A DNA stretch of 50,025 nt from Dysosmobacter sp. (GTDB lineage: Bacteria > Bacillota > Clostridia > Oscillospirales > Oscillospiraceae). Position numbers and translations under genes: made by a program. Shown here in pieces: positions 34,588 through 36,636 of this stretch. The stretch lies in the NCBI GenBank assembly GCA_022778785.1, contig JALFSO010000097.1:1-50025 (forward strand). Direction: 5' to 3'. Position 1 is the first letter of the stretch. Every line of letters begins with the position of its first letter. The notes under the pieces were generated by a model that was not told where the DNA came from, did not search any database, and saw only the letters and a program-made list of their open reading frames with translations.

Positions 34588-34639
34588 GCGCTTCCGCCCC
34601 GGCCTGTGTTACAGGTGTGTGACAAACCGGGCCGGAGGC

Positions 34640-34668
34640 TTGACAATCCCCGGCCCGGAGGATATGAT
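34640..34668 (+). promoter_or_regulatory. Consensus promoter of the ABC-F leader transcript
   Basis: A perfect TTGACA (34640-34645) and TATGAT (34663-34668) are 17 bp apart. The start point should be near 34675, giving a leader of about 475 bases before the ABC-F start at 35149. Confidence 0.8.
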
Positions 34669-34699
34669 AGAGCGCGAGAAAACGAAAAGGAGTGGAAGG

Positions 34700-34720
34700 A
34701 TGATTTCTGTTTCCTGCTGA
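34700..34720 (+). CDS. Six-residue leader peptide MISVSC
   Basis: A complete mini-gene, ATG to TGA, encodes MISVSC. An AAAGGAG ribosome site lies at 34686-34692, seven bases before the ATG, about 25 bases after the predicted start point. Its own coding bases (TTTCCTGC, 34710-34717) pair with the 3' arm of the leader hairpin. A ribosome stalled here would open that hairpin. Leader peptides of this kind control several ABC-F and erm genes. The identification is inference from the site, spacing and pairing. Confidence 0.65.
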   Translation: MISVSC

Positions 34721-34793
34721 TCACAGAATCGGTGCCGGAGGCCCTGAAAAGGGCCTGTGGAATGCTGTCCCGGCGCCGGAAGCAGGAAAGAGA
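34706..34793 (+). promoter_or_regulatory. Leader hairpin (anti-antiterminator) overlapping the leader peptide
   Basis: A long composite hairpin: 34706-34718 pairs with 34781-34793 (12 of 13), CGGTGCCGG (34730-34738) with CCGGCGCCG (34770-34778), and GGCCCT-GAAA-AGGGCC (34740-34755) caps it with a GNRA loop. The 3' arm GCAGGAAAG (34782-34790) is also complementary to CTTTCCTGC (34865-34873) in terminator 1 and to the identical bases in terminator 2. The two pairings exclude each other, as expected of an attenuator. Confidence 0.65.
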
Positions 34794-34850
34794 ACGCCTA
34801 CCGCCATATCATGGGCTGCCCGTCCCGCCGCGGGCATACGCCGTCATGCT

Positions 34851-34885
34851 GTGAGCCGCAGGAGCTTTCCTGCGGCTCACTTTTT
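34851..34885 (+). terminator. Leader terminator 1 upstream of the ABC-F gene
   Basis: A 13-bp perfect stem, GTGAGCCGCAGGA with TCCTGCGGCTCAC, has loop GCTT and TTTTT after it. There is no preceding full-length gene for it to end, so it is best read as a conditional terminator in the leader. Confidence 0.85.
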
Positions 34886-34886
34886 G
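34852..34886 (+). repeat. 35-bp direct repeat, copy 1
   Basis: Bases 34852-34886 are identical to 35092-35126. The repeat contains the terminator hairpin and T tract. The two copies are 240 bp apart. Confidence 0.85.
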
Positions 34887-35091
34887 TCCTGTAACTGTTT
34901 TGGAAAAACGGACAGTACCGGACAGAAGGGGGAGCCCGAGGGGGCGAAGCCCGCCTCGGATCAGATCAAATGCCCCGCAATACACTGCGGAGCAGTGTTT
35001 GCGGCCAGCGAAGCTGGGACTTTTCCGACGCACAGCGGCGGGAAAGTAACGGCATTCTCAGGGCGGCAAAGGTCAAAGGCCTTTGCCGCCC
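34886..35091 (+). other. Structured spacer between the two leader terminators
   Basis: No gene was recognised. The RNA can fold into several stems: around CCGAGGGGGC and GCCCGCCTCGG near 34937-34960, a 10-bp stem with one bulge near 34978-35003, and a 16-bp perfect hairpin at 35057-35095 (CTCAGGGCGGCAAAGG with its complement). The last shares three bases with the left arm of terminator 2. It may be a dispersed structured repeat that brought the second terminator. Confidence 0.4.
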
Positions 35092-35126
35092 TGAGCCGCA
35101 GGAGCTTTCCTGCGGCTCACTTTTTG
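35092..35126 (+). terminator. Leader terminator 2 (direct repeat copy 2) just before the ABC-F gene
   Basis: A 12-bp stem (35092-35103 with 35108-35119) has loop GCTT and TTTTT at 35121-35125. It ends nine bases before the AAGGAGGA ribosome site of the ABC-F gene, so it must be read through for expression. It carries the same CTTTCCTGC target as terminator 1. Confidence 0.85.
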
Positions 35127-35148
35127 CATGCGACAAGGAGGAACGCGT

Positions 35149-36636
35149 ATGTCCATGATCCGGGTCAGTGACCTGACCTTTGCCTATCCGGGCAGCTATG
35201 ACAACATTTTCGACCACGCCAGCTTTCAGTTCGACACCGGCTGGCGCCTGGGCTTTACCGGCCGCAACGGCCGGGGGAAGACCACCCTCCTCCGCTTGCT
35301 GGCGGGGACGTATCCCGACGGCGGTGCCATTCAGGGAAAGGTGCCCTGCTCCTATTTTCCCTTCCCGGTGACAGACTCCTCCCGGATGACGTTGGAGGTG
35401 ATGGCGGACGCCTGCCCCGCGGCGGAGAAGTGGGAGCTTCTGCGGGAGGCGGGGGAACTGGAGGTGGAGGCGGAGACGTTGTACCGCCCCTTTGACTCCC
35501 TGTCCAGCGGGGAGCGGACCAGATGCCTGCTGGCGGCGCTGTTCTGTGGAGAGGGGCGGTATCTGCTCATCGATGAGCCCACCAACCATCTGGACCAGCG
35601 GGGCCGGGCGGTGACCGCCGGGTATCTCCGGCGGAAGCGAGGCTTTCTGCTGGTGTCCCATGACCGGGATTTCCTGGACGGCTGCATCGACCACATCATG
35701 GTGCTGAACCGCACCGGCATGGAGGTCCAGAGCGGGAATTTCTCCTCCTGGTGGGAGAACCGGCAGCGACAGGACGCCTTTGAACAGGCCCGGAATGACC
35801 GCTTGAAGGAGGAGATCGGGCGGCTGAAGCGGTCGGCGGAGGAACGGCGGCAGAGAGCCGACGCCGTGGAGCGGGCCAAGAGCGGCATCTCCTCCCAGGG
35901 CATCGTCAAGCACGGCCTGCGGCCCTATCTGGGGGAGAAGTCCCGGAAGGGACAGCAGCAGCGGAAGAACATGGACCGCCGGGCGGAGCGGGCCATCGCG
36001 GAGAAGTCCGGGCTTCTCCGGGACCTGGAGAAGACGGAGACCCTGAAGCTCCATCCCCTGACCGCCCGGGGACGATTGCTGGATCTGCGGGACGCGGCCC
36101 TGTTTTACGGGGACCGGCAGGTCTGCGGCCCGCTGACCTTCTCCGTGGAGCCGGGGGACCGGGCGGCGCTGACGGGGAGGAACGGCAGCGGCAAGTCCAC
36201 GCTGCTGAAATTCCTCTGCGGGGCGGATATCCGCCATACCGGCACCTGCGTCACCGCGTCGGGGCTGACGCTGTCCGTGGTGCCCCAGGACTTCTCCGGC
36301 CTCCGGGGGAGTCTGACGGATTTCGTCCGGGAGGCGGGGGTGGAGGACGCCCTGTTCCGTGCCATTCTTCGGAAGCTGGACATGCCCCGGACGCAGTTTG
36401 AAAAGGACCTGTCGGAGTGGTCCGCCGGGCAGCGGAAGAAGGCGCTGCTGGCCAGGAGCCTGTGCCAGAGCGCCCACCTGTACGTCTGGGACGAGCCGCT
36501 GAACTACATCGACGTCTGGTCCCGGATCCAGGTCGAGACGCTGTTGGAGACGTACCGGCCCACCATGATCTTCGTGGAGCACGATGGAGCCTTCCGGCGG
36601 CACATCGCCACAAAGACCGTGGTGCTGGATAGCTAA
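35149..36636 (+). CDS. ABC-F ribosomal protection protein, Lsa type
   Basis: Soluble twin-ATPase that displaces antibiotics from the ribosomal peptidyl transferase centre. Lsa members protect against lincosamides, streptogramin A and pleuromutilins. The 495 residues match Lsa in length and in its N-terminus (IRVSDLTFAYPGSYDNIFDH, WRLGFTGRNGRGKTT). Domain 1 has Walker A at 38-45, LSSGERTR and LLIDEPTNHLD. Domain 2 has GRNGSGKST, WSAGQRKK and WDEPLNYIDVWSR, also Lsa-like. There are no transmembrane segments. The start MSMIRV at 35149 lies six bases after AAGGAGGA. The upstream leader suggests antibiotic-induced expression. The exact resistance profile cannot be read from sequence. Confidence 0.9.
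   Translation: MSMIRVSDLTFAYPGSYDNIFDHASFQFDTGWRLGFTGRNGRGKTTLLRLLAGTYPDGGAIQGKVPCSYFPFPVTDSSRMTLEVMADACPAAEKWELLREAGELEVEAETLYRPFDSLSSGERTRCLLAALFCGEGRYLLIDEPTNHLDQRGRAVTAGYLRRKRGFLLVSHDRDFLDGCIDHIMVLNRTGMEVQSGNFSSWWENRQRQDAFEQARNDRLKEEIGRLKRSAEERRQRADAVERAKSGISSQGIVKHGLRPYLGEKSRKGQQQRKNMDRRAERAIAEKSGLLRDLEKTETLKLHPLTARGRLLDLRDAALFYGDRQVCGPLTFSVEPGDRAALTGRNGSGKSTLLKFLCGADIRHTGTCVTASGLTLSVVPQDFSGLRGSLTDFVREAGVEDALFRAILRKLDMPRTQFEKDLSEWSAGQRKKALLARSLCQSAHLYVWDEPLNYIDVWSRIQVETLLETYRPTMIFVEHDGAFRRHIATKTVVLDS

Follow-up and report, generated by a model that had tools for sequence, protein, structure and literature searches.

How could the gene for a ribosome-protection-type ABC-F protein be switched on by a drug that acts on the ribosome, and what would such a switch read in a leader with a reading frame of only six codons? 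These questions are raised by a locus of Dysosmobacter sp. (contig JALFSO010000097.1, assembly GCA_022778785.1) that lies in a stretch of 50,025 nucleotides (nt), hereafter called the window. The initial annotation had described, in front of an Lsa-type ABC-F gene, a promoter, a ribosome site, a mini-gene encoding MISVSC, a long hairpin, terminators, and a segment able to pair with either the mini-gene or the terminator. All of these parts were located in our analysis, as listed below, and the 5' arm of the hairpin indeed falls inside codons 4–6 of the mini-gene, which we call the upstream open reading frame (uORF). Comparison with homologous leaders makes it highly probable that the leader acts by ribosome-mediated attenuation of transcription, in the manner of VmlR.

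34640..34668, + strand: sigma-70 type promoter, TTGACA-17-TATGAT, with 11/12 consensus bases
34687..34692, + strand: Shine-Dalgarno sequence of the uORF, AAGGAG; its G-rich block is conserved in the alignment of homologous leaders (A1, below)
34700..34720, + strand: uORF MISVSC, ATG ATT TCT GTT TCC TGC TGA with stop TGA; of the form M-x-x-x-x-C(-x), as in 67/85 leaders
34710..34717, + strand: segment A, TTTCCTGC, 5' arm of the anti-antiterminator, within uORF codons 4–6; its partner is B
34782..34790, + strand: segment B, GCAGGAAAG; its partner is A or C
34851..34886, + strand: terminator T1, stem 34851–34880 followed by a U-tract
34865..34873, + strand: segment C, CTTTCCTGC, in the 3' half of T1; the alternative partner of B (antiterminator)
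34887..35091, + strand: insert with a divergent copy of a dispersed repeat that has no open reading frame (ORF); absent from the closest relative
35092..35126, + strand: terminator T2, stem 35092–35119; a 35-nt identical copy of 34852–34886
35135..35141, + strand: Shine-Dalgarno sequence of the ABC-F gene, AAGGAGG, identified by eye
35149..36633, + strand: Lsa-like ABC-F ribosome-protection-type protein of 495 amino acids, the stop codon extending to 36636

Two promoter-like sites were found, compared with a mean of 0.3 in shuffled sequences, and six terminator-like sites, compared with a mean of 1.2. The fold of 34675–35148 had a z-score of -11.15, and none of 100 dinucleotide shuffles folded as well. 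According to the model that we propose, ribosomes in drug-free cells would start on and quickly leave the six-codon uORF, and A (34710–34717) would pair with B (34782–34789). B would then be unavailable, T1 would form, and transcription would stop near 34886. A drug that blocks the peptidyl transferase centre (PTC) would instead hold a ribosome on the uORF start codon and cover A; B would be free as C emerges, B:C would form first, T1 would be delayed, and the polymerase would read into the ABC-F gene. The conserved information would be an RNA segment placed some 8–12 nt downstream of the start codon's first base, where an initiating ribosome would cover it, and the peptide would go unread. 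We infer the translation of the uORF, its arrest by a drug, the identity of that drug and the success of B:C by timing. Induction by a lincosamide, a streptogramin A or a pleuromutilin may be expected because of what the available portions of papers on VmlR (PMC9226507) and on Streptomyces ARE5 genes (PMC12421871) report.

To assess this arrangement by comparison, we collected homologous leaders. A family search found a homologue at E 1e-80 in 80 of 300 genomes, our own included; a named collection yielded 333 relatives, from which 80 loci were kept, and 40 further upstream stretches were added. With five short loci removed and identical ones counted once, the set comprised 131 distinct upstream regions, each 150 nt or longer; a terminator was found by rule in 125 of them. 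In 85 of the 131, a short ORF, a middle segment and a terminator arm followed one another in the same order and spacing, as defined by a short ORF 55–115 nt ahead of a segment that fits the terminator 3' half in at least 7.5 of 9 positions. The 90 nt preceding the uORF contained a promoter with at least 9/12 consensus bases in 56 of the 85 leaders, compared with 4 of 79 control stretches. The closest relative, Oscillibacter valericigenes An860 (loci L010/L039; protein 73% identical), has the uORF MIPVSC, the same three segments and a single terminator. Aligned homologous leaders, which the initial annotation had proposed as a check, were found to keep both a mini-gene and covarying pairings. 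As a side observation, seven of the 131 regions (L040, L041, L042, L053, L066, L070, L074) carry a second type of leader before Lsa-like genes, with a uORF of the form VTH-x-LLRI, which in L042 is placed in tandem after a leader of the first type; no paper containing this motif, in any of four spellings, was found in the literature searched.

The pairings were examined by covariation. At the A/B site (third base of codon 5), defined in 66 of the 85 leaders, we counted T/A 39 times, C/G 16 times, T/G 11 times and C/A never; at the B/C site, defined in 70, A/T occurred 35 times, G/C 30 times, G/T 3 times and A/C twice. Fisher tests gave 1.5e-8 for A/B and 4.7e-14 for B/C, values uncorrected for relatedness. 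The choice of segment B had rested on how well it fits C, without regard to A. A tree was made of 52 of the proteins, each at least 440 amino acids long and taken from loci up to L118 in which both sites were read; it requires a minimum of 7 changes at the A site, and all 11 disjoint pairs that differ in A have G in B in the leader whose A site is C. For alignment A1, eight odd leaders were omitted from the 85 and the remaining 77 were thinned to 65. A:B was paired in 91.2% of its cells in these 65 leaders, compared with 48–64% when one segment was slid along the other, and it had 33 double-change cells, compared with a shuffle mean of 4.4 (0/500 shuffles as high). The corresponding values for B:C were 94.7% against 42–68%, and 49 double-change cells against a mean of 15.7 (0/500 as high). 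For every one of the 11 terminator pairs in A1, one or more sequences had changes at both partners. Because A:B and B:C are mutually exclusive, we counted these named structures in place of RNAalifold, which on A1 returned the terminator alone. The dual pairing of B claimed by the initial annotation thus stands, supported by three-way covariation in the relatives.

Folding with and without a ribosome on the leader, also proposed as a check by the initial annotation, moved B from one partner to the other. In the leader RNA of the window, ended at 34873, B takes A as its partner (0.99) in the absence of a ribosome and C (0.99) under the mask of an initiating ribosome. B:C exceeded 0.5 only under the initiating-ribosome mask in 58 of the 65 leaders.

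Several observations weigh against this reading and are gathered here. The layout was not scored in 46 of the 131 upstream regions, among which are the second leader type, regions where no terminator was found and at least one member that the rule overlooked (L038, by eye). The leaders were selected by B:C fit, so that the B:C covariation and the computed switch are partly built in. A:B was judged by five measures, of which two were neutral or adverse: the number of A:B pairs with a double change was reached by 47 of 500 shuffles, and the number of further pair types was matched in 500 of 500. In leaders with the uORFs MRK and MRN, A:B in fixed register reached just 4.5–7.5 of 9. Without the mask, A:B exceeded 0.5 in only 53 of 65 leaders, and the closest relative, L010, stayed below the cut-offs of the switch (A:B 0.30 free, B:C 0.41 masked). 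T1 exceeded 0.5 in 55 of 65 masked leaders, and in the full-length leader of the window under the mask it was favoured, at -80.1 versus -74.5 kcal/mol. Because T1 is the more stable structure at full length even under the mask, the switch must be kinetic, a matter of timing. Antitermination in attenuators generally depends on timing. Of the claim that a stalled ribosome frees B to break the terminator, the freeing is borne out by the computed B:C under the mask, but B:C would be transient, since T1 wins in the complete RNA.

The association with the downstream gene was assessed with a covariance model of the leader, on which the window scores 89 bits. Counting our own genome, the model matched 48 of 391 genomes of the class at E 1e-3 and 31 of 398 genomes of the phylum at E 1e-4; in f108, a family of the same phylum, it matched 85 of 148 genomes. 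An Lsa-like ABC-F gene lay downstream of 93 of the 106 matches that were read. Among 49 class loci, 40 had an Lsa-like gene, one another ABC-F gene and eight none; 27 phylum loci comprised 23 with an Lsa-like gene, two with N-terminal remnants of one, one with a nucleotidyltransferase and one with none; all 30 loci of f108 had an Lsa-like gene, two as short matches. The Lsa-like proteins found via the leader are about 41–60% identical to the window protein. The latter scored 408.0 bits with NCBIfam NF000355 (ribosomal protection-like ABC-F), above the curated cut-off of 380, and 618.1 bits over residues 1–493 with NF000167 (Lsa family). Because this second score lies under the curated cut-off of 750, we name the protein Lsa-like, not Lsa, with which qualification the claimed association with an Lsa-type gene was upheld. 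Among proteins of solved structure, the closest to it in sequence is Lsa(A) (7nhk, E 3.4e-111).

The proposal of VmlR-kind attenuation, and with it the ribosome-stalling attenuation claimed by the initial annotation, is supported because the three-way covariation, the switch computed under the ribosome mask and the association with Lsa-like ABC-F genes all point to it. The adjacency of Ser-Cys codons to the stop codon could also suggest an attenuator responding to starvation for cysteine or serine; we give almost no weight to this explanation, as a ribosome-protection-type ABC-F gene lay downstream in 94 of the 106 matches read and the layout persists in uORFs that contain neither serine nor cysteine.

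Other genes and matches were noted in this survey. In L195 (G665:C12), a full leader of 68 bits with the uORF MIIFSCK precedes an ABC-F gene whose product is 26% identical, scores 427 bits with NF000355 and is nearest to the Msr and CplR models, below their cut-offs. Strong leaders in L227 and L230 (120 and 104 bits) are retained before a mere N-terminal remnant of an Lsa-like gene. A weaker match of 39.9 bits, with the uORF MIVTTC, precedes an uncharacterised nucleotidyltransferase (L249/L251; G915:C1:903796-905142), which may also be controlled in this way; the idea of a second class of genes with this leader was rejected, since the loci of the 2 further homologues in 61 genomes (L252, L253) lack a model match at E 1. 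Where no ABC-F gene followed (L210, L215–L219, L221, L222 and L250), the match was judged to be chance; L210 had E 1.2e-8, and a low E-value alone is therefore no proof. The genome of the window has three more two-domain ABC-F-like genes (G000:C46, G000:C118), one of them under the model cut-off, and the leader model had no match beside these three at E 1.

To what extent the peptide itself matters was judged from the uORF sequences. Besides the 67 uORFs of the M-x-x-x-x-C(-x) form, in which MINFSCK occurs 15 times, the 85 leaders include 18 others: MRK (7), MRN (2), MR, MSL, MISSCK, MHISA, MHSFPN, MRILIA, MTSYLA, MTSYPA and MISFLA. Among 45 distinct 18-nt uORF starts, codon 4 had an entropy of 1.62 bits at its first position, 0.84 at its second and 0.50 at its third; this third base, the pairing partner of B, is retained while the amino acid varies. 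The cysteine codon was TGC in 44 of 45 distinct uORFs, and codon 5 was mainly TCT or TCC. A free search for duplexes between B and the 30 nt after the start codon gave energies in the lowest 5% of shuffles for 66 of 67 leaders of the Ser-Cys type and 16 of 18 others, the failures among the latter being L119 (MRK) and L157 (MSL). These results show that pairing with B close to the start codon is kept in nearly all leaders, with a shifted register in some, and that at the level of sequence it is the RNA pairing, not the peptide, that is conserved.

A cysteine ahead of the stop codon or of one last codon, usually after serine, in 67 of 85 uORFs is what a sequence-specific arrest peptide would predict, the drug stalling the ribosome only after Ser-Cys has been made, as in classical leader-peptide systems. 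We regard this explanation as quite improbable. The RNA coding for Ser-Cys is the pairing segment itself, with codon 4 fixed at its third base only, and pairing after the start codon is found in the 16 of 18 uORFs of other form, including MRK and MR, and also behind bare start-stops (see below). In the leaders with MRILIA, MTSYLA, MTSYPA and MISFLA (L145, L147, L151, L156), where Ile, Leu or Pro followed by Ala replaces Ser-Cys, B and C have changed alongside to GCGGGAA and TTCCCGC; L107, however, retains Ser-Cys despite GCGGGAA. The leader probably does not act as an arrest peptide, and its peptide is probably incidental, because the RNA segment persists although the peptide differs in sequence and in length and can shrink to a bare start-stop. 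The stalling on a leader peptide that the initial annotation proposed is thus kept as attenuator logic, but its cue would be occupancy of the start codon, and the sensor is likely to be a drug-arrested initiating ribosome.

Leaders of family f108 bear on this directly. We read 72 of them (L240, L245, L254–L323) and parsed 67 by rule; the counts come from related genomes and are non-independent. In 46 of the 67, the start codon is followed directly by a stop codon (ATG-TAA 21, ATG-TAG 17, ATG-TGA 5, GTG-TAA 2, GTG-TAG 1), and these start-stops stand 8–12 nt before a TTCTTGC-like segment. The 46 sequences are all distinct and occur in 12 of the 12 genera parsed. The background rate in 30 f108 loci is 177 stops directly after 4722 ATG or GTG triplets (3.7%). 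Twenty other leaders have a different short ORF (MDISC 8, MDFSC 3, MYISC 3, ME 2, others), and one has no ATG or GTG ORF. In 44 of the 46 start-stop leaders A pairs with B better than in 95% of shuffles, A having been located by a motif that suits B. Caution is needed since the start often lies, by eye, 12 nt behind GGAG, compared with 7 in the window, and since longer frames compete in L276, L300, L314 and L263 (the last by eye). The chances appear evenly balanced that this attenuator family is a drug sensor without a leader peptide, which reads only the occupancy of the start codon by an initiating ribosome; the event in f108 would be the arrest of a ribosome with fMet-tRNA facing a stop codon, and the switch RNA would lie immediately downstream. 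Neither bacterial start-stop sensors nor this leader class were described in the titles and abstracts listed from the literature searched, which leaves out most subscription papers. PMC9841429, considered as a bacterial start-stop precedent, was set aside because its subject, in the part available, is overlapping start sites.

We compared the leader with known systems through the available portions of their published descriptions. Four elements reported for VmlR-type control are found here: a uORF with a Shine-Dalgarno sequence, an anti-antiterminator including the uORF, an antiterminator overlapping the terminator, and an intrinsic terminator before the gene. The leader thereby resembles that of Bacillus subtilis vmlR, likewise an ARE-ABCF gene, in which the uORF variants MIN, MDN and MDK are described as functional and MRK as less so, and for which NusG-dependent pausing and a hairpin sequestering the Shine-Dalgarno sequence are also described (PMC9226507). 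Of these, MIN is met again in our set at the start of MINFSCK, and MRK as a uORF by itself. Unlike that of vmlR, the uORF here mostly extends through the pairing segment and stops immediately after it, and the ABC-F clade differs (PMC9226507). Clostridioides difficile cplR and LsaA are ARE-ABCF genes that also have uORF-controlled leaders, but their uORFs are given as MR[I/M] and MAGN, different from the consensus here, and the LsaA search in that paper used an 80% identity cut-off, compared with the 41–60% identity of our Lsa-like proteins (PMC10201436). The Streptomyces are5sc and tiaA leaders share a terminator/antiterminator model, and arrest at the start codon is reported for ARE5 uORFs; those genes, however, are actinobacterial ARE5 genes with the uORFs MLV and MVGDDDISG (PMC12421871). 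The AUGUAA of plant NIP5;1, at which ribosomes are described as stalling on a start codon directly before a stop, is similar, but it is eukaryotic, senses boron and acts on mRNA decay (PMC11915504). MISVSC did not occur among the matches listed in the literature searched for leader peptides, and none of those listed dealt with this topic. With Rfam 15, the window gave no match at gathering score; in sub-threshold scans, 34600–35150 gave 11 matches, and these, like those of L002, L003 and L008, were weak.

The leader of the window differs from that of the closest relative in having two terminators. Both, as claimed initially, are present, but T2 is the product of a repeat insertion. The insert (34887–35091) matches seven other places in the genome at 72–84% identity over 51–190 nt, and a repeat query taken from one such copy had at least 41 strong matches in the genome, many at contig ends; this search scored 40 of 80 candidates, and the window copy was outside that list. 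Twenty repeat copies (among L002–L008 and L324–L351) were examined, of which 14 had usable flanks. The same local hairpin stood on both sides of the repeat in 10 of the 14 (11 with L351), located 4–74 nt before and 7–14 nt after the repeat in the 10 copies. The two flanks of a copy had a median score of 45.5, compared with 17.0 for flanks of different copies, and only 3 of 14 exceeded the 99th percentile of the cross scores. The T1/T2 pair fits this pattern of a hairpin on both sides of the repeat, and the sequences indicate that T2 came with the dispersed-repeat insertion. In this strain the inserted repeat and T2 probably add a further barrier that escapes regulation, or are partly disarmed by the end hairpin of the repeat. 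A stronger version, in which the leader is no longer useful in this strain and T2 behind T1 keeps the gene mostly silent, seems unlikely to us. T2 is indeed an identical, full terminator, and by reasoning B cannot open it while paired to the first copy of C. Although T2 folded alone is complete, its first bases are taken up by the end hairpin of the repeat when the whole leader is folded, and its stem is thereby separated from the U-tract; the upstream parts, moreover, are intact.

Whereas the three-part logic of the attenuator is known from VmlR, the leader class is widespread and new as a variant. The leader, whose copy in the window is unmatched in Rfam 15, would serve as an RNA signature of ABC-F genes that are probably inducible. 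The more than 150 leaders read form a large comparative set for asking whether uORF sequence or start-codon occupancy is what counts in sensing drugs of the PTC, a question left open by the ABC-F papers, and the start-stop members would separate these two effects.
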